Assembly: GCF_040183065.1 (NCBI RefSeq)
Contig: NC_091122.1
Span: 80,477,455 to 80,541,454, forward strand
Length of the DNA: 64,000 bases
From: Periplaneta americana
Lineage: Eukaryota > Arthropoda > Insecta > Blattodea > Blattidae
Reading direction: 5' to 3'
Position 1 is the stretch's first letter. Each line of letters begins with the position of its first letter. Under the pieces are notes generated by a model, which saw nothing but the letters and a program-made list of their open reading frames with translations, was not told the DNA's origin and ran no database searches. Both the position numbers and the translations under genes were made by a program. Shown here piece by piece: positions 4,306 to 51,900 of this stretch.

Positions 4306-6130
4306 TTTGTCTAAATAACGTTGAAATATAGTTTTACAAAGTCCTGAGATTAAGTGTTAATGATCGCAAACAATACAAAATTACAAGTTATAATATTATA
4401 AACGTTAATCTAATGAATGCATTTATACACATATACAATGTAAATGCATATATATTAAAAACTAACAATAAAAATGAAATAAAAAAATTATGTAATAATA
4501 GACAAACTTTTACAAAGGTTTAGAGTCCTTAGGCTAAGTCATTTGTCGAGTAATTATTACAATATTTTTATTAATAGGTTTCCCATATGTGTAAGAAATG
4601 CACTCGCACAAAACAATTTTTGTTAAAAGTATGGCTTGGGATTATTTCATTCTCACCCCTTCAATTAATTTTAACTATTTTATCTACGTGTTTGCAATAG
4701 TGTTTCATTTAATGTGTATTCAATTTTATTCATGTTATGATTGAATGAAGAAGCACTGCTGCAGTTATTGACTAATTACATATATTAATATAATTATTAA
4801 ATGCATCTGTTAAGTAACCAATTGCAGTATATTTTGCAAAATCTTGAATGTTTAAGTTGTCAATAATATTTCTGTACTATATACTATAATACGTTAAAAG
4901 AATTTGCAATAGATTTGGGATCCTCTACTTTATAATCATTGGTTTTAATGAAAAAATATTTTCTTTCTTAGGATATCTACAAGTTTAAATTTAACAATAT
5001 TTCGAATAGGTTTAATTGTATTATCTGAATTTTGTACTTTTCTATTCAAATATATTCTAATTCCCTCTTTCATAATTTTTTATAAATTACACTGTACTTC
5101 TTATAGTATTTAAGAACATGAGGATCATTACATTGCAACTCATTACATATAGATTCTTCTTTTTAATACATGAGATTTTGAAGTCCCTGCATTATCTACA
5201 TGTTTTTACTTTTGAATTTTTTCACAACATTGAGTGGAGAACATCCACTGAAGTGATTATGAAATTAAGTGAAAAATTCAATACATTTACTCTTAATATC
5301 AGTAGTACCAGTAACATATATGTTTTTCCAAGATTCATTTTATAGACATAAATGTAAATAATCACTAGATACAGCATTTACGATCCTTTCTTAGTTTTTA
5401 AATTAATATTTTGAAATTGTACAGTAACATTGGAAACACTTAGGATTTGTTTATCATGTTCAGACAAACCATTGATTATAGGTTCTGTCGAATAGGAATT
5501 CAGTCTAATTCTGTGTACAAAACATTTATCAATGGCTGTGCTACTTCAGTTTGTATGCTATGGGAAAATGACTCTACGACTTAGGTTCCAGTTTCAAGGA
5601 GTGAATTTAATTTACATTTACGGAAAAGTTCCGAGAGATAATCTATGTATATGTCACTACAGATCACAAATTCCATATGAGATTTCTAAAGTCTTTTCTT
5701 TACAAATTCAATGTTGGCTATAAATATTAATAAATAATGTAAGAAATATGAATGATTGTAGTTAGAAGTCTGATTTACATTATAAAAAGCAAGAAGTTAC
5801 ATTCCTCCGCAAGATTCGAACTTTCGATGATGGTTTTGTTGTCCAACGCACAGCCACGGACCTATTCAATGCTTATGTTAATAACCTACAATTTAGCTGT
5901 AGCAATATGGTGTCATAACTTGGAGTTTATCTACTAAATGTAATTAGATTTAATTTGATTAGTTTCGCAACAATTGGACTTCCTGTTATATCCTGTTATT
6001 TAGATATTTAATTTAGGGTTGATTTATTAACTCTTACTATGCAAGATGCCTCTTATTTCAATAATTCTATATCACGTTAAATAGTCATTGTCTACAATAA
6101 AGTATTATCGTCATCCCTCATTTCTCATCG
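4306..6130. other. AT-rich non-coding interior of element D
   Basis: No gene is seen. The longer open frames (for example 5118-5345 and 5532-5723) have no recognisable domain and arise in very AT-rich sequence. A box-B-like GATTCGAAC on the minus strand near 5812 may mark another SINE fragment. Confidence 0.4.
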
Positions 6131-6132
6131 TA

Positions 6133-7142
6133 ATGGCGAACCGACGTGACATGAGACAGCGAGTTATAGCTCTAGTTGAGGCTGGATATGGGGCTAGATC
6201 TGCTGGCCGTTTGGTCGATGTTCCTGGAAGTACAGCCGCGAGGTGGGTTCATAGTTACCAAAATTTTGGGGAGGTCGAAAATCGCCCTATTCCTGGGCGT
6301 TCGCGGATTTCTTCATTGGAAGAGGATGCTCTCTTATTCGAGACAGTTCGACAGGACCCCTTTCTGACTGCTAACGAAATAAGAGCAGCATCTAACTTTC
6401 CCGGCTCTTCACAGACTGTGATCAGCAGGTTGAGGAACCGCGGTATTAGGAGCCGGAGGGCTGCGCAAATGGAAATTTTGGGGAAAGCACAAACTGTCGA
6501 CCATCTTGCCTTCGCTACCAATCGAGTGGATTTCGATTGGAGAAATGTAATTTTCTCCGACGAAACAACCATCTCGAGTGATTACGAAGTTCCTGTCCGT
6601 GTCTATCGTGAGGAGGTCTCCGACATGACCAGCGCTATGTGCACCGACGTGAAAGATCGGGGCGCTTTAGCATATCGTGTTAGGGGTGGATGTCTTACGA
6701 TGGACCTGGCGTTATAGAACGCATCCATGGCCGGTTTAATGCGGGAACTTATGAGCACATTCTGGAAAATATATTCCTTCCCTCCGCCCGAGAACGTTTT
6801 CCCGAAGGAACATTGCTGTTCCAGCAGGATAACCATCCCGTGCACTATGCTGCAAGCATTCAAAGATGGTTTCAAAGGAGATCCGAGATCGAAATCATTA
6901 ATTTGCCTCCGAAGTCACCTGATTTGAATGTCATCGAAAATTTATGGGCGGAATTGAAAAAGAGAAGGATAGCCACCTATGCCCACCGACGCCCTCGAAA
7001 TCGAGACGAATTGTGGGATCAAGTTGTTGACACCTGGGAAGATCTCGCCGGGGATCAGAACTTATTCCACAATCTCGTGACATCCATGCCGGATCGACTT
7101 AGAGCTGTAATAGAAGCTGATGGCATGTGGACAAGATTTTAA
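6133..7142 (+). pseudogene. Tc1-like transposase with DD35E-type spacing, one frameshift and one stop
   Basis: Translation most plausibly starts at ATG 6133 (MANRRDMRQRVIAL), although the frame is open from about 6088. An N-terminal paired-like HTH (GYGARSAGRLVDVPGSTAAR) and a second HTH near residues 85-125 bind the element ends in this family. The catalytic region begins at VIFSDETTIS (first Asp). Between about 6611 and 6640 the frame shifts, and a TAG replaces an expected Trp codon (TGTTAGGGGTGG). The remainder, open to 7142, holds FQQDNHPVH (second Asp) and SPDLNVIENLW (Glu). By hand count 35 residues separate Asp and Glu, against 34 in classical Tc1. No clear TIR was found. It is inactive as it stands. 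Confidence 0.88.
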
Positions 7143-11765: not shown

Positions 11766-13678
11766 CATACATTTCCAAGTGCTATTGTCATTAAATAAGT
11801 AACTTAAATTGTTCACCTACGCTGGCACACAGCTATGAACCCTAATAAAACCTAAACACAGTAAATTCACTCATACAAGCAGTCAAACATAATATTTCAT
11901 AAGCAGAGACCGGAAGTTTAGGCATTATGAATCATTAAAATAGGCAGGCAAAAAGGCATAAATAGGTAAAATACGCAATAAAAGGCAATTACAAAAACCT
12001 TGCACTAGACCAACAACCTTGCACTTTCCACAAAGGGATTTTGGCTGCAAGGAAAGCTTTACGTAAGTCGAATGCAAATTGAGATTTTCGACTCTATGTT
12101 GCAGTTACTGTTGGAAGCAAAGAAATTTCTTCCCAGTAGCCTTGGAAAGTGCATTTTTGTGTTTGGTTGTACTGGTATGTAGCGATATAAAATATTTTGC
12201 TAGTTACAACAACGTCGCAATGAAAACTGAAAGAAAAATAACCGTTAAAAATATCGTTATACCCGCACTCATTGTTGCCTTGTCAAATAAACACAAGCGA
12301 TAATTAAAACGCTTACTGTTATACATTTTTGCACTGCAGCACCGTTGCCTACGATAGTATCACTTAGGCAACGGCAGCACTCACTGTTGCAAAGAGAATA
12401 TGAACTGACTGAAAGACAATGTACATTCCGGTGAAGTCACTTTCATTGTAGCGGTTATAGAAATAAATTAAAATATACCTGTAGGCAATTTTAATAATAT
12501 ATTAATAAATAATAGATAAATAATAAAATAAAATAAAAAAGCATTTATTTTGTAAATTAGGCATTTATATTTTTAAAAAAGGCAGAAAAGGGCAACATAA
12601 ATTTGTGACGTTTCAATCACAGAGGTATAATTCGAACAGATTTACTTTCAAAATGAAGATAGATTTAACACTTGAGAGAAGCGAGTATCCCCACCACTTC
12701 ACCGTGCGCGCGCAGAGAATCATAGCAGTAACTCTCAACCGAGAATATTCTTTTATACGGACAGGACAACCAGAACCAGACCAGACCTCATTCCACTTCA
12801 TCGGGCAGAGCGTAGCCTACCTTATAAAACGAAAGCCATCCTGGGGATGGTGTGCACGTTCAACCAGCAGGCATTTAAAATATTTAAATGGTAATAAATT
12901 AAAATTAGTTTTGCACTATATACGTCAACTTCCAATGAGATTACCACGCATTTAAATTGTGACAAATGAAAATTGTTGTTGCATTATATAAAATAACTTA
13001 AAAAATGAATTACCGAATTTACAGGGTGTCCAGCGCACGCCTTGAACACCCATAATATACGCCCCTGAATTTACATTATAAATTTAGTCACTGTGAACGG
13101 AGACAGGGTCATGTTAAACGATGCAGTGCACTCCGAGTTGCCATGAATGGGCTAGTGGCCCAATGATGGAAACCGTACCCGTGCACACTTTCATAACTAC
13201 TGTTTCGAATTTAGTTAACAAAGAGCCGTGTTAGCTGATTTAATACGTCTATAATGTAAATGAATGATTAGTTATACATGCATATATTATAAATAAGGTC
13301 CCTGAGACAAATAACTCCATGTATACCTTTAACGCCACCCTACTAATTTTTGTTAGCGACACAAGTTTTCGGTAGTGCACTATTGTAGCCTGCATTCGCT
13401 TGCAATCTAATGATGAAATGAGCTACTGCTGTCCGTTGACATTTACGAGTGACATGATATTCCACCATTTTGCTGTTGTGTGTTGATTGTGAAGGCTGTT
13501 CTTATATCAAAGTAAGAGGCAATATTTTATTTTGTATGTTGAGCAAATAATAACTATATTGAACTATATATGTTCGTGATCATTAAACATTCCTTTATGC
13601 AGAGAAAGTATTTGCTGTCTATAACGTTTGAAAATGTTAGAGAAATAGGCGTGTAACGTTATCAAGTACTCACTAGCG
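11766..13678. other. Non-coding stretch, possible small DNA element
   Basis: No gene is supported. At 11940-11995 and 12535-12600 an AAAGGCA/AGGCAT word recurs, which could mark the ends of a non-autonomous element, without a proven boundary. The longest open frame (12605-12955) has no domain and atypical residues. ACAGGGTGTCC at about 13021-13031 resembles a transposon end but has no visible partner. Confidence 0.35.
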
Positions 13679-14015
13679 CTTTAACGCGAAGGCTTCTAAA
13701 CTTCTCTTAGGTTGCATTAGTATCGAGCTCGTTGGCGAGGGATTGACGGGGAAAGGAGAGCGATTCTGACGTCACAAGATAGCTGAGAGCGCCAAAACTC
13801 AAATGCTTCAAAGCAGTATCTAGTGTTTTTTCTTGTTTATGTTGTTTTGAATGCATTATGCCAGGTCAAAGATGTGCTGTTGCGGTATGCAATAATTCTC
13901 ACGATAAAAATAAAGAGCTGTCTTTCTTTACCAATCCTAAAGATTTAGGAATTAGAAAAAAATGAGTAATTGCATGCAAAAGACAGGATAAATTCAATCT
14001 TGATACAAGCAGAGT

Positions 14016-14099
14016 TGTTGTTGTTTATTGACATTTCTGGCTTTGAGCCAGAGGCCGATTTAGAGTCTTATACGCGCAGGACGCCCTCTCCAGCCATTT
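14016..14099 (-). mobile_element. 84-bp LINE 3' end inserted in the THAP exon
   Basis: CAAGCAGAGT occurs at 14006-14015 and again at 14100-14109, and removing the 84 bp between restores the THAP frame (LDTSRVCSDHF). On the minus strand the insert ends in GTCAATAAACAACAACAACA, a non-LTR retrotransposon tail with a CAA repeat. It is extremely 5'-truncated, as LINEs often are. Confidence 0.85.
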
Positions 14100-14907
14100 C
14101 AAGCAGAGTATGCTCTGATCATTTTAAAGATTACGATTTTGTTTCTGATTTTCGAGCAGCATGAATGAAAATAAAGCCGAAACGACCGAGAATGTTAAAG
14201 CCTACAGGTAAGTTTAATAAATCACATAGGCCTATATAAGTAGCCTATGTTAATACCAGCTTTGTATAATTAGATTAGATTCATCTATGTTAACCTACAA
14301 ATTATTTTCTTTCTTTTGTAATCATGCTACTTATACTAACAGTTGCATACCAAAGGGGTGGAGGGTTAACGACTGATACCAATGATGTTTTTTCACTATA
14401 ATTCTCATTATATTGATTTTATATTAACGATTTATGAGATTTTGTCATTATGGCATAATCAGCGGGTTAATCATAATAGCCTCAAGTGACAATTCATTGT
14501 TGAGTTATAATTTTATTGTAAGTGAACGTGTTGTTGACATTTCATTACCGGTACATGCCCCTTTTTTCAAACTTTAAAATGAGATATTAAAGCAATCAAT
14601 GTTAGATGTTTTATAAACATACATTTAAAACAAAACCACTACCATCTTGGATCTCTTTAAATTTTAGTACATCATTCTTTCTTTTGAAGGTTTAACCATG
14701 TCATCACCGGCATGGCTAAGTAATTTCAATAATAATGAAAAATTCTACAATGAGTTTCATGGCAAGAACACGATTAAAAAGGGGCTGAATATTATAAAAA
14801 GAACCAAAGAATATGTGGCAATATTCGTACATAACGTTCCACGTGAAATTTTTATTGTTTATTGTACAGTCAAAACTAGGTTCTTTATACGACTCTAGTA
14901 TGTGAAC

Positions 14908-16497
14908 CGTTGCTTACGAGATTACACAAGCTGGCGCATAGCGCTTGAAAAACGAGTCTGAAGTGGTTCCCTCGTAATGCCAATTCCGCCGCTCGGAGCG
15001 CTGTTCTGCCCTAAATATTCATAGCAGAACACTTAAATGACATTGACATTTGGGACATTTAAAGGACTCACCATTGCTTATTAAATGCTTCGTACAATAT
15101 TTTATGGACAATAGACGTAATTTACAAACTTGTACTCCTCAATTATATTCATTCTTGATATTAAAACATATTACATATAAATTGAGGGACTGTCTGCTCT
15201 GTACTTCAGTTCATACACCAAACATTTCCGGAAATAAATTAACTTGACATCTTACATATACGCACTATAGCCTACCCTTTTCACCTAATATTATTAATAT
15301 TGTTATTAAATAAGATATTGCAACTAATTAAGGTACTGCATTATCTTTAATTTCCTTGAATTCATAATTAAGCATTTGCAAGAAGGCCTAACTTTTCCCG
15401 CTCTTTAAAAAAAATACGAACGTCACAATAACTGAGAAGTATAATTATTGCGCGATTTTTTCTTGCAGTGGTGAAAACATTTCTATAGGCCTACTGATTA
15501 ATCTATTGAGCATAGTAATAGTAAACGCTGTAGTATTTTAGGGCGTGTAAATATATTTTGAATTAGCATTTATCAAATTAGGAAGTTAGTCTGTAATTTG
15601 TGTGAATGAAATGGTTTACTGCTGTGTGCCATTGTGCAAATCGAACCAGAATAAAGAATGTGATTTTTCGTTTCGTTGTTTTCCACAAGATGAAGAACTA
15701 AGAAAGAAGTGGTGTGTAGCCATTTCTCGCGAAGGGGACAAACCAAGGACTCTTTGGACGCCAAACAAGAAATCGCGTGTCTGCAGCAGACATTTCAAAG
15801 AAGCTGATTTTAGCATTGGCACAACATTAAAACGTTTGCTTCCTAATGTGGTACCATCCGTCTTTGATGATTTTCCGAAACATAAACAAAATGTTTCAAA
15901 CATAAGTAGACGCAACTAAAGAAGGATAACAGAAGTGGTGAATAACATCCATCCTGCTAAGAAAAATAAACCCAATGTTGAATATAGTACATCAGCTTTC
16001 AATGAAGCAAATGTTTCAATTGAAGAAATCTATGAAGCACATAAAAAAACTATAGCCACACAGTGCTCAATTGAAAGTAAAAAAATTCCCAAAGCCATTA
16101 CATTACAACGTAAAAAAATTACTAGGACAATTCGGAAACAAAATCAGCTTATTGGAAAACTAAGACAGACAATATGTAATTTAAAAAGCAAGCTATAAAG
16201 ATACGACCTGTTGGTACTGAGTTCTTCACATAGCAAAACACAGACAATTTTCGAATATAACTTAGCTGAACAAACTTCAAATAACACTGTAATATGCTTG
16301 GCATATTTATAATATTCGTACTCAATCAGTAATGCACAATTAATCGAACTATTTTCACGATACACAATGCTTTGTAATGGTACTATTCATCATTTCTTAG
16401 GGCAGCGAGGCGAACCTAGCGGCAGAAATTGTCATGACTCACAGAGACCTACTCTCGATCGTGCTATGCGCCAGCTTGTGTAATCTCATAAGCAACG
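14908..16497 (+). mobile_element. P2: inner P-superfamily (THAP) transposon nested in P1
   Basis: TIRs of 37 bp begin CGTTGCTTACGAGATTACAC at 14908 and its reverse complement ends at 16497, with two or so mismatches. Weaker inverted similarity extends inward to about 110 bp on each side (for example GCCGCTCGG / GCCGCTAGG and CTGCCCTAA on both). ATGTGAAC flanks it at 14900-14907 and 16498-16505, an exact 8-bp duplication. It encodes only a THAP protein, about 200 codons, so it would need a transposase in trans. Its TIRs are unrelated to those of P1. Confidence 0.9.
15611..16198 (+). pseudogene. THAP zinc-finger protein of P2 with one in-frame stop
   Basis: ATG 15611 opens MVYCCVPLC, the canonical Cys-x4-Cys start of a THAP domain. 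Trp is present (KKWCVAIS) and the Cys-x2-His pair is SRVCSRHF, followed by a basic Leu-rich stretch (TTLKRLLPNVVPSVF). All four zinc ligands are visible. A TAA at 15917-15919 interrupts the frame, which stays open on the far side to 16198 and ends in a coiled-coil-like KQNQLIGKLRQTICNLKSKL. No RNase H region follows. THAP proteins bind DNA; in P elements this domain recognises subterminal sites. The single stop could be a nonsense mutation or lie in a short intron; the first is more likely. Confidence 0.85.
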
Positions 16498-16855
16498 ATG
16501 TGAACACAAGCTTGGAAACTAGCAGACGAAAACGGAGGCAGACACTGAGAGCAGACGAATTGTTAAGAAATACAGAAAAATAATGCAGTGACAAGTGTAA
16601 GTACAGCTTTTATATACACTGTATAAACACTTTCAACGTATTTATTTTATTCCATGATACTTAGGCCTACACACTTGGTTTATATTCCTTGTAATGTTTT
16701 ATTTGAGGCGATTATGTTTATAATGCACGCTTATCAATTTGAAAATAAAGGACCAATCAGCATGGACTCTTCGCGCGTCATCAGTCACCCAGCTATTTGA
16801 TTGGCTAATGAAAAACGAGATAACCTATTGAGAGTATAGAAGCCTTGCTTTAACG

Positions 16856-17213
16856 CCACGGTACTCATTTGTTCGATAGTGAGCTTGGGGCCGCGTCAAA
16901 GGGCCCCATAACTTGAATCACTTTAGCGCTCAAATGCCATGGTGCGCGGCGTACAATGTCGCATTCGCTAGGACGGAAATTCACGAAATGTTACGAAGTT
17001 ACCGTTACGAATATAATATGCTTCGTTGTGGACCATTCAAAGCTGGCCCGCAAGACCACAGTATGTTCTCTATACTGTGGCCAGACTGACGGAAGCAAAT
17101 TGTCGTAGATACTTGTTTTGTGAACAGCCGCACAGCTAACGGTCTGAGCGAGGTTCTAAAACAAAGTCTAAACCTTTCAATTTAGAAAATAAACTCATAG
17201 CTCAAGCATAGGT
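16856..17213. other. Non-coding spacer between P1 and the hAT remnants
   Basis: No open frame or repeat is recognised. The region is relatively GC-rich up to about 17000 (GGGGCCGCGTCAAAGGGCCC near 16887). Confidence 0.35.
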
Positions 17214-18492
17214 CGGTGGCGTAGCCAGTGGGTGGGCCAGGTGGGCCCAGGCCTATCCAAAAAATTGGAGAATTTTTTAGTTTTTTTTTAGGAAAAAACT
17301 CAACATTAATAATAAACCATGGATCCAGAGCAATAATTACAATCGATAGAATTAAGATAAGTCTAAAATGCGTTTATTTTTTCAAGAGCCAATTTAACTG
17401 TGTTAGGTTGGGCTGAAAAAAAAAACTATCTGGTAGCGATAAAAAGAAGGAAACTGTGGAGAATACTTAATTGTTACATCAGTTAGAAAAATTTGACACG
17501 TTATTTTATTTGGTATATTTAGACGTTCTTGTAAATTCATTATCGGAAGCACTTCAGTCTTCAAAAATGGATATTAGTAAATGTTCGTCCCTCATTAAGA
17601 CAATGACAGAAAACTTTTCAAATCTCCGAAACGAAGAAAAATTCAAAGAATTTTATTCCAGTGCTGTTTGTATGACAGAAGTTTTCGGAATCAGTGTCTC
17701 TGCACAAGAAAAAAGAAATCATCGACCACCTCAATCTCTGGTAACAGACCATTTCTTTACTGATGACGGCGGTGCTGCACTGAAGAGTTCCGATACAGAG
17801 CAATAAGATAAGGTTTTGCTGATAGCAAGTTTATATACTTGATAATGTCATATCAGAAATGAAAAAGACTATTTGAAGAAAATTCTGTTTTCTGTGAAGC
17901 AGTATCAGTTTGTGATCCAAAGTCTTCTGATTTCATGAACATCAAGACGTTGCGAGAACTAGCTGATTTGTATGGATCTTCAAATTTTGTGTTAAACGTA
18001 AACAAGGAACTTCAAGAGAAACATTGTTCCCTCGTGAAATCAATGAATTTAAATCAAAACATGTGTGTGACCCATATTCTAAACTACAGAACATAAGCAT
18101 GGGTTTGGCATTCCAGGAACTACTCCAAGTTTTACAAATTATAGGCCTACTGCTCTGTCCCTTAACAACTGCATTCGCATCATGACGAATAAAAACTTAC
18201 ACCAGAACAACCATATCAAGCACAAGGTTTTGTAATCTAGCAATTTTATCCATCGAGAGGAAGAAAAGTTGGAATTTGTTGAAGGACCCATCATCAGTGG
18301 TCAACAGATTCATTGCTAGGAAATCTCGACAGCTCCAGTTCAGCTTATGAAGCGTTTGTATAAGTATGACTTGCATGATTGTTTATCATAATTTTGCATG
18401 TTATCAAATAAGACTTCCGACGGCATTGTCAGGTACTTTATAAACTCTGCATATCTGGCTCACCCAAAATAATTAGTCTGGCTACGCCATTG
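17214..18492 (+). mobile_element. hAT copy A: internally deleted ZMYM1-type element with TIR-like ends
   Basis: The ends GGTGGCGTAGCCAG (17215) and, reversed, AATGGCGTAGCCAG (from 18491) are typical hAT termini. Inside, 17471-17803 on plus encodes QLEKFDTLFYLVYLDVL, KCSSLIKTMTENFSNLRNEE and KFKEFYSSAVCMTEVFGI, the region before the C-terminal dimerisation domain in ZMYM1-like hATs; further fragments (PKSSDFMNIKTLRELADLYG) follow near 17925-17990. Stops are frequent after 17806. Flanking octamers do not match, so the duplication is decayed or the ends are of different origin. Confidence 0.65.
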
Positions 18493-32560: not shown

Positions 32561-32654
32561 AATACATAAAAAGTTCCAAAGTAGGCTCCTTTACCATGAG
32601 CCATTTCAAAGAAGCTCCAATCAGCAGGAAAACCGAAGTCTTCTTTGTGATGAA

Positions 32655-33474
32655 TAGAGTCCGGATTTTTGTGTACTTACATATTTTTTCCCTTGTATAA
32701 ATGTCTGTCTCAAAACGAAAAATGTTGGCGAATTAGGCCACTAAGATCATTATACTTAGTTTTAATACTACATATTTTTAGATATTTCGCACAATACTAG
32801 GCCAACATATTTTTACATGAAATTAATATCAATATCAAATGTCGTTTAATTAAATATTTTTCAAAGAAAATTAATATTTCTGTATAAATTAAAACGAAAT
32901 TATAAAAATATGCTATTTTAAACTCAATGTAGTCAGTACATAATGGGATACATATGTACAAATTTCAGCATTCAGGACAAAACAACTACTCCTGTAGTAG
33001 TGAAAAAATTAGAAGCAGTCCTTGAAAGAAATTGGGGTTATGCCAGTTTATTTACTGTTCTCCAGATCTTTGTCGGGAATACACGGGACCCTCCAAAAAC
33101 ATTTCTATCAGCCATATCTATTTGTTTAAATATGCACCAGTAACTTCATGCGATGTCGAGAGATCATTCTGTGTATAAGAACATACTATCCAATTATCGA
33201 CGGAAATTCAGTTTCTGGAAATATGGAGGAATATCTTGTAGCACATTGTGCGTCTTAACTTAAAATCACACCAAAACCTACATCGTAACATAATATATAA
33301 ATGCATAATTTGTATGAAATTAAGTTTAACTATTTTTTTTAAATAAATAATTTATTTTGAACTCCCTGTGTATTTTCGATATTACATATTTAGTATATAT
33401 TTTGAGATTTTTAGTTACATATTTATGTACATATTTTTAGGACCAATAAATATTACATGCAAATCCGGACTCTA
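32655..33474 (+). mobile_element. 820-bp hAT remnant with intact TIRs and 8-bp duplication
   Basis: The ends TAGAGTCCGGATTT (32655) and its reverse complement (to 33474) are matched, and GTGATGAA flanks exactly at 32647-32654 and 33475-33482. Inside, plus-strand pieces KTTTPVVVKKLE (in 32943-33143) and FKYAPVTSCDVERSF then LSNYRRKFSF (33128-33215) are the C-terminal hAT dimerisation motif. The catalytic core is deleted; it is non-autonomous. Confidence 0.88.
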
Positions 33475-33482
33475 GTGATGAA

Positions 33483-38889: not shown

Positions 38890-40280
38890 TATATTATAGT
38901 ATGTACTGGTTTGTATAGTAGAAGATGGAATATTCTAGAGCAATGGTTCCAAGTGCAGGTAAATTGAGTCGTAAATCAGAGCGTGCATCAAGTCTATTTC
39001 TGTACTTTTGTTTCACTTGAACTAAAGAGGAAAATTGCTTTTCACAAAGAGATGATGTTGTGAACGGCATGAGCAACTTTAATGTCCCATTCGAAAGTTC
39101 AGGATATTCACGCCTTAATGATATCCAAAAAGTTGTTATTATATCTGAGTATAAAAATTTAGTTGTAATGTCAGAATCATAGCTAGTATCATACAACTGT
39201 TCTCTTAGTTTCACTGACAAGTTTGAACTTTCGAAATATAAAAATTGGTCTCGAATCTTTTTGAATTCCTGTAATTTTCTGGAAAATAACTTTCAATCTC
39301 ATTATTGAGAGCAGAGAGATGGGATACTACAGAATCACAAAAATCATAAGGTAAGGAAAAATAATTCTCACTTAGAAAATAATCTAAGGTTGAAAAGGCA
39401 GAAAAATTATTACTTTTGACGTACTCTAACCACAAATTGATCTGTTTCTGAAATGACTTGACGTTATCATAAGCTTTGAACACAGTGATGGTTGGGCCTT
39501 GAAGGGACAAATTGAGTTCATTTAGTTTGGAAAATATGTCTGCCATATAAGTCAATTTGGCAGCCAATTGTTATCTAAAAACAAAGCCATGTACTCATTC
39601 TTACAATCATTAAAACATAGTAAAACTTCTTGGCTAAGTTCGAAAAGTCTTACAAGGACTTTACTCATTGAAAGCCAGTGCACTTTGTGTGAAGCAGGAG
39701 ATGCTGTGTTCACTATCAATTTCTTCGCAAAGCACAGAAGAAAGTCTCGCATTCAATAGACGAACTTTTATGAAGTTTATCACTTTAACTGCAGTATCGA
39801 AAACTTTTCATATCACTTGGCATGGTCTTACGAACACGCACAAAAACACCACTGTGGCATCCACATCGCTTGACACCCATGCTGTGCTTAATCATATATG
39901 AATTAAGAACTTTGAAAATACATTCTGCTGTTGTATGTGTGAATAAGTTCTCACAGAAAAGAAAATTTCATTGATAGTACTCTGACATTCATATGTAATG
40001 AAATAAATGAGATGAGATGAATTAACTATGTCCATTGATTCATAAATTTGTAATGCAAAAAATCTACTATCTTTTGTTCTCATGATCAATTGATTTTCTA
40101 CATCACTAGTCATTTCATTGATATGGCGATGCACTGTATTGTTAAACATGGAAATTAAATCTAACTGCTTTTCTTCTTTTTCACTGAACATAACTTTAGC
40201 AATATCCTTAACCGCAGGAAGGATCAGTTCCCCAATTATATCAATTCCGCAATTATCTTGTCAACATCTAACAGCATTGT
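38890..40280 (-). pseudogene. ZBED5/SCAND3-type hAT transposase remnant
   Basis: From 40280 downwards: GELILPAVKDIAKVMFSEKE, NNTVHRHINEMTSDVENQL (catalytic region start) and RFFALQIYESMDIVNSSHLI (Asp of the family motif here Tyr-Glu-Ser). Then, through frame changes, KVINFIKVRLLNARLF, SKVLVRLFELSQEVLLCFND and KLTYMADIFSKLNELNLSLQ. The hAT C-terminus is REYPELSNGTLKLLMPFTTS, CEKQFSSLVQVKQKYRNRLD, ending near 38894. This is the order found in domesticated and mobile ZBED5-like hATs. Frameshifts near 39752, 39560 and 39215 show decay. TIRs were not located. Confidence 0.85.
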
Positions 40281-44975: not shown

Positions 44976-45814
44976 AATTATTCATTCCTTTTGTCGTCAA
45001 GCAAGCTGTAGCCGGCAGTCCTCCTCAGAAATCTCATTTCCGCAGTTTGCTTTGTTCAGTTTTATTATTTGCACACTTTGTATAATGGTTTAACACAATA
45101 TTCACAAACTTCATCACTGCTTTCGAAATTAAATCCCTCACTTTCTGACCACAGTTGCATTCATCTATGTCACTGTAAACAACATTGTTCTCCAAGCTCA
45201 GTTTTGATAGTTTAACAAGGATGTTTCTTTGCTGACCTACTTAAAAAAACTTGATGGCTAATTCTGGAGAGTTAATAATGTGCTGGAATATGGAGGCCAC
45301 GTGGAAAAAGATACAAGCAACCAAATCTGTTGGCACAGATAGCTCTCCCCTCTGTAAATGGTCAGAATATGTATCATTCACTTCAGTTCCCTTTTCCTCT
45401 CTCAGCAGATCTACACATAGCTCACAATTCAAAACCTTACAGACACTATGTGATACATAACCACATACGTACAACACCTCAGAGCTATTTGATATCTCAT
45501 AATTTTCTAAATAGCTACTTGACAAGATTGAGTAAAAATCATTAATTAATTCACTGTCTACACTATCATTCCAATCATATTTCATATTCTTAAAACTAAA
45601 GAAGCTTTTCCCCATCATTTTAAATATATGTTTTACCCTAATTTTCTTCTCAGATTCAAATATCTGCCTACATGATACATTATAATTACTGCCAGACATG
45701 ATGCGATATTTTCCAAACCGCATTTCTAAAAGATCAGTCTGTAATTTGTCAGTCAGTATTCAGCCCATTCAGAATTTCTCTTTGTCGAAATTTCCTCCAA
45801 CTTTAAAAAATGTC

Positions 45815-48800
45815 TCATCTGCGTTACATACCAAACACCGAAAATTGGCCATCTCGTTGATCTTGAAAATGCACTGTTGGATTTAATTCCCCCATTATGA
45901 ACATGCTATTGTTGCCGGTGATTTCAACACTAACCTTCTCTCTACTAATTCAGCAGATGGAATTAAGCTTAAATCAATGTTTAATTCCTGTAACATGACA
46001 ATACTACCCCTCCTACCAACACATCACACTGCTTCTACTGAGACGCTACTTGACCTAATTGTGACCACTCACCCCCAGAGAGTCCTAAGACACGGACAAC
46101 TACCAGTGCCCGGTATCTCAGCTCATGACTTAATTTACGTAGAATACTCGCTTCAGTGTCCTAAACGGATATCCAAGATAATATCTTACAGGAACATGAA
46201 TAACATTGACGAAACTAAACTTACAGCTGACGCTTTAGAAATGCCTTGGAATTATATTTGGAACTTACATACTGTTGACGAGAAAGTGGAGGCTTTCAAT
46301 GATATGATACTACGACTATACGACAAACACGCACCCGTAAAGACTAGACGAGTATCCAGACCTCCTGCCCCGTGGATGACAGACACAATAAGGGAACTAA
46401 TGGCGAGAAGGGATGCGGCTTTTCGTATTTATAAGCATCATTAAAACCGCTAATAACTGGCAGTGTTACAAAAGCTTGAGAAACAGAACGACGCAAATAA
46501 TACGTAATGCCAAAATCCAGCATAGCCACAGACTTATCGAACCTGACGCCACAGCAAAGAACTTATGGAAAAACTTACGAACAATGGGCCTAGGTAAACA
46601 AAAACCACAGACGAACTAAATGACCACTATACTTTGTCACCACCCATTTGTCCTGACAGAGTCACAAAACAACAAGTTATAGACGAACTCACATCCCGAC
46701 CTACGCCTATACGTGAGACATTTTTTCTGTGTGACGTATCTCCTACAGACATAATCAAATCTTTAAAACATATCAAAACAAAAGCACAAGGTACCGACAG
46801 TATTACCACAACAATGCTTAGTAAAATAATCGACATTATTCTTCCAACTCTTACACATATCTTCAACGCTTCTCTTATCACATCCTCCTACCCTGTGCAA
46901 TGGAAATATGCTCTTGTTCGACCCCTCCCTAAAGTCATCAGCCTACCACTCCTAGCGACTACAGACCAATAAGTATTCTTCCGACATTATCTAAAGTACT
47001 AGAACGTATAGTCCACAGGCAACTCACCGACTACCTGGACTCGTATGATCTCCTTGACCCACTCCAGTCCGGCTTCAGACCAAATCATAGCACCTCTACT
47101 GCCCTACTTAAGATCACTGAAGATGCTCGTGAAGCTATGGACAGACGCGAAGTGACCATACTATCACTACTGGACTTTTCTCGAGCATTTGAAACTATCG
47201 ACATTGATATTCTTATTGCAAAGCTGAAAATGTTGCATTTGTCAGACACGGCAATCATGTGGATGGAGTCTTACCTTCGCGATCGCCATCAATGTGTGTC
47301 TCACAATAATCGGTTTTCTTCTTGGCAAGACGTGAAGGCAGGAATCCCTCAAGGATCTGTACTAGGGCCTCTATTTTTCGCTATTTACATTAACGACATC
47401 TCTACTGCCCTTAAACATTGTCAGCATCATCTCTATGCAGATGATCTTCAGATATATATATATTCACGACCAAACTCACTTAATGATAGCCTATCAAAAT
47501 TAAATCATGATCTTATGTTAATCAGCAGCTGGGCTAGAAAATGCGGGCTAAACCTTAATCCCGGGAAAACGCAAGTAATTCTACTAGGACATCAAAGATT
47601 ACTATCTTCCATCAGCATTAATACAATTTTGCCAGTGACTTTAAATAATACTATAATACCATTCAGTACTACAGTTACAAACTTAGGTTTCCATTTCGAC
47701 TCGAATCTCAGCTGGAATGCACAGGTAAAATATGTCTGTAAGAAAACTTTCTCAATCTTGCATTCACTGAAAAGACTGAAAAATTTCTTTCCTTCTAAAC
47801 TGAAACAGATCGTGATACAGACCCTGATGATGCCTTACTTTGACTATTGCGACGTTTTGTATAGTGATCTTAGTGTTGAATTGTCATTGAGGCTTCAGCG
47901 TGTTCATAATGCTTGTGTTCGTTTCATTTTTAACAGCCGTCGCTATGATCATGTCTCCGAGTATTTCTTTCAATTATCTTGGCTTCGTTAATGGGAGAGA
48001 CGTTCAGTTCATTCACTCTGTTTGCTGTATCAGATTTTAAATAATTCCACACCTATTTACCTAGTTCCTTGCTTCACACTTTTAGCATCCCACCACAACC
48101 ATGATACACATTCACAGCATAACCATGTTCTATCAATTCCATTCCATCAAACATCTCTCTACTCTGCTTCCTTCACAATACACACAGCTCGTTCCTGGAA
48201 TTCCTTGTCACAGGAAATCAGGAGCAGTCGGATTCTAAAATCTTTTAAGTACACACTACTTAGAAATGTTTTTAATGACCAGAACTAGACTCTTGTGGAA
48301 GTTTCTAAGTATTAGTCTTAAATGACCAAGTTGTTATTTTTTTCTCCTCTCTCTTCTTCTTCTTTTTTTTCTCTTTTCTTTTTTTTTTTTTTATTATCTT
48401 GATATATTTCTTAATCATTTGTGTTTGTATGCCATTTAGTACGAATTTGCTAATCAACATTTTATGTCTTGTAACTCACATGTATTCTCCTATTAGTATA
48501 TTAACTGTATAATATATTCTCAAGTGAATTAATCGTCGTATTTATCTCGGGCATTTTAGGTCTTATAAATTTTGTGAGAGAGAGAGAGAGAGAGAGAGTG
48601 AGTGAGTGAGTGAGTGAGTGAGTGAGAGAGAGAGAGAGAGAGAGAGTGTGTGTGTGTGTGTGTGTGTGTGCGTGTGCGCGTGCGTGTGTGTTTTTTTTTT
48701 TTTCCCTTATGTTATGTAACTGATTTTGATTATGTGTAATTTTCTACTTTATTTTATATATTACATAACCGATCTTGACTATTTGTAATTTTATATTATG

Positions 48801-48990
48801 TAACTGATCTTTCCTATTGTAATTTTCTACTATATTTTATGTAATTTCTAAGGTATTTTCTTTTGTGTTGTTTTGTAATCAAATTTTGTATTTCATGCAT
48901 ATTATTGAAACCTGGTTGAGTGGAAGAGAAGGCCTCATGGCCTTAACTCTGCCAGGCAAAATAAACCTACTACTACTACGCCTGGCAGAA
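45815..48990 (+). mobile_element. Jockey/CR1-like LINE inserted in P4
   Basis: From about 45815 the frame reads KIGHLVDLENALLDLIP and AIVAGDFNTNLLSTNSADG, the endonuclease (Asp and Asn of DFN), then TLLDLIVTTHPQRV and DLIYVEYSLQCP. The linker contains PAPWMTDTIRELMARRDAAF. The RT core includes SLLDFSRAFETIDIDILIAK (first Asp region), AGIPQGSVLGPLFFAIYIND and LYADDLQIYIYSRP, with the frame open 47137-47991. A C-terminal piece (NNSTPIYLVPCF, 48022-48288) follows. The 3' UTR ends GAGAAGGCCTCATGGCCTTA, ACTCTGCCAGG, AATAAA and a short TAC repeat. Frame breaks occur near 46440, 46620 and 46970. The 5' end is truncated. Confidence 0.86.
48573..48702. repeat. Compound (GA)n-(GTGA)n-(GT)n microsatellite
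   Basis: GA, then GTGA, GA and GT/GCGT runs, followed by poly-T, lie in the 3' UTR of the LINE. Confidence 0.92.
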
Positions 48991-51900
48991 CATACTCAAT
49001 TGACAGCCTGTTTAGTGCATAGTGTACAATCAAAACAAGAACTTTTGTGTATCTTTCCAAAGCCTCGAAAGTATCTTTAGATAATCCTGCATGGTTATTT
49101 AAGTCTTTCCACTTTCTTAACCACAGCAAAAAATGATTGCGGTACTTCACTGTACTATCATTTACATTACATATAGAAGACATCCAAATATTGCGCTTAA
49201 AAATTCCTTTGATAGTACATTTTATGTTCACAATATCCCACTATCTTTTAACAATATTTAAAAACATAACTGTTTCCTTATATTCTGGCACAGTTTTGAG
49301 AGCAGCTATAGTTATTTCATGAAAAGCACTATCTACAAAACTCACATTTTATCTTTCAAATGTTGTTGGATACAATGCTTTAACATTGAGCTTGTATACC
49401 TTTTTAATGACACTGGCCATTTCGTTTTTATGAAATGACCTTAGATGTTCAAAAGATGCTTTTCTGATAATACCGTCACTATTAAAGTCTGGATACACAA
49501 AAGATTTTAGTTGATCTTTCAAATTTAGCCAGTTGTTCCTGATATTTTTAAAAACATGAACAAAATCATAAGTTAGAAAAATGGGAAAATTTAAAAACTT
49601 CGCATTTTTCATGCTTTCCATGTTAGAGAGAAAACTGAACATATTTTGATTAACTCTATTATTGTCAGTTACAATAGCGAGAACAGTAAAGCCAGTTTGT
49701 TGTACAAAATCAACTACCTCAAGTGTAACCTCCTTTAATTGCTTCCTGTCATTCTTTTCACTGACAGCAACTTTACCATGTGCTTGAAGTGTCCAAAGCA
49801 AAAACTAATCATGAAACTTTGCACACTTCTTGCTAATTCTTTTACATTATTTTCAGCAATGCCCTTAAACTCAAACCACTCTTCACATAGGCTATATCTC
49901 ATCTATCATCAAAGATACATATTTCTATCTCTCAGAAAGACCCAGAGAAACTTGTTGCAGATAATGTGCAGAGTTTGCTGAAACGTTCATACGAGAAGAA
50001 ATTTGTTGCACATATATTTTGTGTGGTAGTATTAGGTAATCTCTCAATAAATTATACCATGTGAGGGAAAGAGAAAACATCACAAAAGAAAAAATCCAAG
50101 TAACAGACGAATATTGTTTCTTGGTACCTGACATCAGTTTCACTTGGTCACTCATAGGTTGCAGTGTTGTCTTATTAGGAAAATCCTCAAGCTCGGCTAA
50201 TTCCACTGCTTTGCTTAAAGTGCAGTTTGCTTTTTTTTAAATAATTATCTATTGTCTGTACTTCTACAAAGTGTATACTAAGGTTATAATACTTCAAAAG
50301 TAACCTGCCTAGTCGTGTCCATTTACTTAGTATAAGAGCCCCTGGCAATATATCCTTTAAGTCATTTACTGGAACTTCATTATCTTTTAAAAATACCCTC
50401 AAATTCAAATTCTTATCTGTCATAATACTGTATACAAAACTAAGCTCGGAAGTGTCGTTCTTACATATGTCAATGTTCAATATGTAGAAACCATACACAC
50501 TGATCACCTTGTGTTGCCACTTACAAAGTTTTAACTTTTCAGTGAAATGGCTAACAAACGCACTGAAATCACCTACTATATCTTCTTTCTTCGATTCCAT
50601 CACTTTTTGTTCATTTCTTTTTCTAATATCTTCTCTCCGGGAATCAGGATCTCATCGTTCACTTGGTGTGCTACCACTCAAGTATGATGACAAATTCGGA
50701 AACTTGCAGGGCACCACATCGTCTGTTAATTTAGAGAATCTCAGTAATATTTTGTAATTGTGCCGTCTTCTTTTCTCCAGTTTTGAAATAGAATTATGTC
50801 TTTTTCATCGAAGCGATTGGCACAAACAGCTGATGATGACGTTGGTTGCCAATCTTTTTGTGTGGTAGCACGAAGCCAAGCTTGTTTTCGTCTCTCTTCT
50901 TTGGGGAAGAAAACATAGAAACAGTGCCATTTAATCTGACACTGGTGTCATAATTCGACTTGCACCCAGGAACACAACACTTTCTAGGCATCTGAAATTG
51001 ATAAAAATATACAGCAAGTTACAAAAGGAACAAAAATCGTATCAGCTGTAATTTTCAGTGAAGATTATATATTATTATTAGATCGAGAATACGTACTGTT
51101 ACAGATTTCTGAAAGTTCGATAACAAGTGTAAGTTATCACATTACAGAAGTATTAAGCAACCGCAAATTTATACCATGTCTTCTTGATCAGTGCTGTTAA
51201 ATTATGTAATTCGCAACGATAGACCAATGCGTGTTTACACTTCCATCAGCCTTTGCATAGCATTGCCAAATTTATCAACATCTATAATTTAAGATGACGG
51301 TGTCCAATCACAAATAGTTCTTGATTATCATTACACATGTCCATAGCTGAATTTAATTGTTCAAAATACTCATCTTTTATTTGAATTTTAGAATCATTTG
51401 TTGGAGCATATGTTCGTATAATTACCAAATGTGTTCCAAAAATATTAACTACTAATTTTATTATCTGTTCAATTATTTCTTCCCAACTTTTGATGAAAGT
51501 CCTCCATTTATTTTTAATTAGCAATGATACTCCTGCCTGAGCTCTAACTTATTTATTTACTCCACTGCATATATGTTCATAGTTTCCCAAATTTTCATAT
51601 CCTTTACCATTCCTTTTAGTTTCTGTTAAGACCACTAAGGTAACTGCACCTAAAGCTGACACTAACCCAAAGCCTGACACTTTCATTTTCAATGTGTCAT
51701 AATAAGATTACATGTAGTCAGAAACAGAATTTCTGAACATGTTTCAATGCCCTGTTATCTTGGCAACATTGCACAGTATTCTTCTCGCAATACACCTGAA
51801 TTTAGCAAGATGGATGCTGCAAACAGTAGACTGTTGTAACATTTTGCATGGAATACCCCTTTATTGTTAAGCATGTCAATTTTATGTGGAATTTTAAGTT

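Follow-up and report, generated by a model that had tools for sequence, protein, structure and literature searches.

THAP-coding transposons, one nested within the other, in a 64-kb stretch of the Periplaneta americana genome

Positions 13679-16856 of the 64,000-nucleotide stretch of Periplaneta americana DNA analysed here (the window) contain one transposon-like unit enclosed by another, with the inner element, P2, lying within the outer one, P1. A first-pass annotation had described a THAP-coding transposon nested in a second one, and this description is supported by the reading frame of P1, which resumes beyond the P2 site; the nesting is very likely real. The reading that we hold with considerable confidence is that two cut-and-paste transposons inserted successively, first P1, which is now decayed, and then P2, an internally deleted element of the P/THAP9 type. 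P1 is the older of the two, and also the less certain. The nesting itself is an ordinary, expected outcome in a repeat-rich insect genome. What it yields is an ordered set of layers, P1 before P2, and the addition of P/THAP9-type elements from a cockroach. All features of P1 and P2 described below are given on the + strand.

P2 spans 14908-16497 (1590 bp) and is flanked by an exact 8-bp target duplication, ATGTGAAC, which is identical on the left (14900-14907) and right (16498-16505) sides, as had been reported. The inverted ends that had been assigned to P2 are also present, at 14908-14942 and 16463-16497, with 34 of 35 positions complementary, although their length is 35 bp and not 37. Even with up to three mismatches allowed, the window holds no copy of the end motif beyond these two, compared with a mean of 0 in 100 shuffled sequences. 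The window was also scanned for inverted 20-bp ends flanked by exact 8-bp duplications, low-complexity pairs and octamers with fewer than three different letters being dropped before counting; P2 scored 19/20, and none of 20 windows resampled under an order-1 Markov model reached 17/20. P2 also has a pair of subterminal inverted repeats, set 76 bp in from its left end (14984-15014) and 70 bp in from its right end (16397-16427); they are 31 nt long and match at 74%, a figure that carries no chance control for the pair alone. The exact end motif was not found in a collection of viral contigs, and a plasmid collection gave no match. A hAT origin for P2 would fit the 8-bp duplication but was rejected in view of the THAP domain and a P-type relative.

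The reading frame of P2 begins with a THAP domain at 15611-15919, consisting of 102 codons followed by a TAA stop (15917-15919). The domain is recognised by Pfam with an E-value of 1.6e-17 and matches the THAP2 structure 2d8r with an E-value of 2e-9, and the residues that are invariant in the alignment, including C, H, W and P, are retained. The frame continues at 15920-16198 as a coiled-coil segment, with L, I, V or M at 8 of 13 core positions in the best of seven heptad registers, and ends with NLKSKL and a stop (16196-16198). In this copy of P2, the TAA separates the THAP domain from the coiled coil; lysine stands at the same position in the related proteins P0001, P0003 and P0004.

Evidence that P2 is a truncated element came from comparison with the database protein P0003 (489 aa). 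The P2 frame is identical to residues 2-195 of P0003 at 189 of 194 positions (97%), the five differences being four substitutions and the stop. The P2 frame ends exactly after KSKL, where P0003 runs on towards an RNase H domain. P0003 itself carries a THAP domain (E 1.7e-17) and a TNP-like RNase H N-terminal domain (E 2.9e-29), and it matches the solved P transposase 6p5a with an E-value of 4.9e-11. In the alignment to 6p5a, P0003 retains the acidic residues in DEM and IVTD/IVSD together with a D-x2-H motif, which are taken to belong to the signature of the P superfamily, as far as that signature is set out in the accessible text of its description (PMC8230255); P0003 seems to stop short of the third acidic residue. 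No relatives of P0003 were found in the viral contig collection or in a collection of prokaryote genomes. When P2 is set beside the THAP9-like transposases (P0003 and P0005-P0007), it differs from its closest match, P0003, in that P0003 goes on into RNase H; an RNase H core with D-D-E and D(2)H is absent from P2. Because of its high identity to a protein that runs on into an RNase H domain of the P/THAP9 type, P2 is an internally deleted, non-autonomous member of a P/THAP9 family and no autonomous element. The features of the P superfamily found in P2 are the 8-bp duplication, inverted ends of about 30 bp, subterminal repeats, and a THAP domain with a coiled coil. The element that encodes P0003 presumably has the same ends as P2.

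The position of P2 within P1 is marked by the frame of the outer element. P2 plus one octamer amounts to 1598 bp, which is not a multiple of three, and taking it out restores a common P1 frame. That the P1 frame continues once P2 and the octamer are set aside supports the view that P2 inserted into an exon of P1 that was already in place. The restored frame had been given without the TAG at 14896-14898, just ahead of the P2 site; while the rejoining stands, the sequence across the junction reads RL-stop-YVNTSLETS. On the far side of P2, the second exon of P1 resumes at 16506-16583 with TSLETSRRKRRQTLRADELLRNTEK and a TAA; the frame runs on as YVNTSLETSRRKRRQTLRADELLRNTEK to the stop at 16581-16583.

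The coding region of P1 is more damaged. Its first exon (13858-14207) encodes a THAP domain from MPGQRCAV and is followed by a GT donor at 14208-14209. A GT-AG intron at 14208-14689, with its AG acceptor at 14688-14689, would join this exon in frame to the second exon, which extends over 14690-14898 up to the TAG. The THAP domain said to be kept in P1 is recognisable, in two pieces with Pfam E-values of 7.9e-5, just under the cut-off, and 0.16, but it is broken in three places. A TGA at 13963-13965 sits where aligned THAP domains carry tryptophan, a 94-bp insertion lies at 14006-14109 with a 10-bp direct repeat, CAAGCAGAGT, at 14006-14015 and 14100-14109, and a second TGA follows at 14162-14164. 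The insertion, which is TTG-rich at one side, is possibly a retroposed fragment; only short partial matches to it occur elsewhere in the window. A search with the second exon gave 2 candidates, neither of them at E <= 0.01; the exon belongs to no Pfam or NCBIfam family, and has no relatives in the viral contig collection. No P-type core was recognised in P1, in keeping with the view that the catalytic core is missing from both elements. A search of Rfam with positions 13200-17300 gave 0 matches.

P1 extends from 13687 or 13688 to 16847 and measures 1562 bp once P2 and a single octamer are subtracted. It had been assigned inverted ends and an 8-bp duplication. The inverted ends are present, but an 8-bp duplication (13679-13686 on the left) leaves them one base out of register, with 10/26 matches ungapped and 20/26 when a one-base gap is allowed. 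With a 9-bp duplication, CTTTAACGC, at 13679-13687 and 16848-16856, the ends at 13688-13713 and 16822-16847 are in register and match at 19/26. The two flanks have 10 bp in common, so the duplication may be 8, 9 or 10 bp long, and the ungapped register fits 9. Given that 9-bp duplications with ends matching at 13/15 or better in register average only 0.025 per resampled window (1 in 40 windows), P1 is likely to be a real element. Interpretation of this value is limited by the 13/15 thresholds having been set after P1 had been seen; low-complexity pairs had been dropped, and the control was order-1 Markov resampling rather than exact shuffling. Moreover, the 13/20 match of the P1 ends is unremarkable in the 20-base scan, where 35 such pairs occur in the window and the resampled mean is 16.35. 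On both counts P1 is less certain than P2.

The original proposal had named octamers that belong to a longer repeat as a sign against it, and this is partly the case for P1. The sequence CTTTAACG begins a 23-bp near-repeat (20/23) found at 13327-13349 and 16848-16870, with one copy 352 bp upstream of the left P1 duplication and the other covering the right duplication. In one test the near-repeat looks to be beyond chance, with nothing comparable in any of 300 resampled windows or of 5000 resampled flanks of 400 bp (order-1 Markov). By local alignment the result is weaker: the near-repeat scores 31, compared with a resampled 95% value of 24 and a maximum of 33 in 300. Either P1 may have inserted into one copy of a local repeat, or part of its duplication may be illusory. 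This bears on the proposal that P1 does not form one transposon, its ends being a chance match and its octamer coming from the older 23-bp repeat, with P2 lying in a decayed THAP gene or some other repeat. While the recurrence of CTTTAACG at 13327 within that repeat and the ordinary quality of the 13/20 ends in a 20-base window are consistent with the proposal, the combination of a 10-bp flank repeat with 10-bp exact inverted ends, one base of offset being allowed, appeared in 0 of 40 resampled windows, and a two-exon THAP-coding frame lies between the P1 ends. We regard this proposal as very unlikely, and P1 is treated below as one element. A longer P1 starting from 13327 was rejected, as the inverted end sits at 13688 instead. 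A retroposed origin of the segment at 13350-13678, bounded by the 23-bp repeat, was tentatively rejected, no A-tail being seen by eye.

The class of P1 is harder to assign than that of P2. The claim that both elements are P-type is well supported for P2, by the 8-bp duplication, the long inverted ends and the RNase H domain of P0003. For P1 it is only plausible, because the length of the duplication is ambiguous and the second exon had no relative in one search. A different origin, in which P1 is a TTAA-targeting THAP transposon of the Kolobok type with P2 still a P-type insertion inside it, draws on the THAP domain, TTAA target and AG/RR termini that the accessible text on Kolobok transposases describes (PMC6004289). 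Such an origin is possible given that CTTTAACGC holds a TTAA and that Kolobok transposases carry THAP; the right P1 end, read from the TTAA, starts with AGCAAGG, and the ends in the TTAA register match at up to 19/26 with a one-base gap. It is disfavoured by the flank identity, which reaches 6 bases past the TTAA, as is the case for just 100 of 29873 TTAA pairs (0.3%) spaced 500-6000 bp apart in the window. In addition, the left end in this register starts with CG rather than AG, and about 5% of the octamers in the window contain TTAA anyway. A Kolobok origin of P1 is thus quite unlikely, and membership of the P superfamily is a plausible assignment. The two elements had also been called unrelated, which is too strong. 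Their ends differ, but the THAP pieces of P1 match the P2-family protein P0003 in a tblastn search, with 37% identity in a 38-aa piece and 61% in an 18-aa piece, at a joint E-value of 2.3e-6.

The suggestion that such elements are unusual in an insect outside flies finds no support. The P element superfamily occurs in all investigated arthropod species of one survey, whose set includes one blattodean and one isopteran, according to the accessible text (PMC6327564), so a cockroach would be expected to carry P-type elements. Protein relatives of P2 are annotated in Periplaneta americana itself (P0001 and P0004), and the window holds a third remnant of the same kind. P/THAP9-type families in cockroaches were not described in titles or the starts of abstracts among the matches listed, the subscription literature lying mostly outside that scope. 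In Anopheles gambiae, the ends of P elements measure 27-31 bp and contain 8 mismatches in one clade and 6 in another, the 8-bp duplications are perfect, and the subfamilies include THAP domains, non-autonomous relatives and P-MITEs, as the accessible text describes them (PMC1562414). P1 resembles these elements by description, with 7 mismatches in 26 positions of its ends, and differs in that a duplication of 9 bp fits it better than one of 8 bp. Kolobok elements share the THAP domain with the present ones in the accessible text (PMC6004289), and their TTAA duplication fits only P1, and weakly. The relative P0004 consists of a THAP domain and coiled coil 53% identical to the P2 frame, a linker repeated in tandem and a tail of unrelated sequence, with no RNase H domain at Pfam; its gene is a candidate for a host gene that arose from a P-type element.

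The fly KP protein keeps the THAP domain and the coiled coil and lacks the core, and flies and cockroaches diverged more than 300 million years ago. P2 shares with the P and KP elements of D. melanogaster an 8-bp duplication, ends of about 31-35 bp, subterminal repeats, a THAP domain with a coiled coil, and the absence of the core (the fly features as given in the accessible text of PMC7776569). It differs in its end sequence, in the long leader before its frame and in an extra stop codon in this copy. Under the favoured history, the older THAP-coding P1 would have landed first and then decayed through stops and a small insertion. P2 would later have entered the last exon of P1, producing the 8-bp target duplication. 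It would have been mobilised in trans, with the transposase of a full-length P0003-type relative acting on its 35-bp ends. The truncated frame of P2, with THAP and coiled coil and no RNase H core, may have encoded a KP-like DNA-binding protein that occupied transposase sites; the stop, which its relatives do not share, would confine the present copy to the THAP domain.

The truncated frame of P2 recalls the KP repressors of flies, and by that analogy a repressor function may be suggested. In a stronger version of this idea, P2 derives from a functional KP-like repressor family under selection, of which the present copy was recently broken. The frame stops after the coiled coil, it differs from P0003 at 5 of 194 positions and its invariant THAP residues are intact, all of which would be expected on this account, and in flies some small P elements are able to code for repressors, the 207-aa KP protein among them (PMC7776569, in its accessible text). 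While these observations are consistent with past selection, codon 102 is followed by a stop in P2 as it stands, no truncated copy with an unbroken frame was seen, and the high identity of P2 to P0003 may mean youth alone; selection of this kind is unlikely. An intact truncated frame, as a KP-type element would have, is not present in P2, where TAA 15917-15919 interrupts it. A broader proposal, which we consider a long shot, is that cockroach P/THAP9 families repeatedly yield core-less proteins with THAP and coiled coil that act as KP-like self-repressors or as new DNA-binding proteins. The routes would be internal deletion, for P2, and perhaps capture, for P0004. If this were true, the core-less proteins would parallel the P system of flies by convergence. 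Should many truncated copies prove to have kept THAP domain and coil intact in one frame, independent KP-style self-repression outside flies would become testable.

Several other elements share the window with P1 and P2. The third P/THAP9-like transposase remnant, which is larger and decayed, lies at 44990-51020 on the - strand. It has a weak THAP domain near 51.0-50.7 kb (Pfam E 0.0097; E 3.2e-4 to P0003), and pieces of its core at 49726-49007 and 45759-45052 match P0007 with E-values of 1e-12 and 8.5e-6. Its own ends were not found. It is interrupted by a reverse-transcriptase-like frame at 45887-47991 (+), recognised by eye, around which no direct repeat of at least 9 bases was found. Further transposase-like frames were seen by eye at 114-785 (mariner, -), 6085-7142 (Tc1, +) and 38894-39292 (hAT, -). 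A short element at 32647-33482 has an 8-bp duplication, GTGATGAA, and ends TAGAGTCCGGATTT that reach 17/20 in the 8-bp scan; from its motif, it looks like a miniature element of the hAT type.
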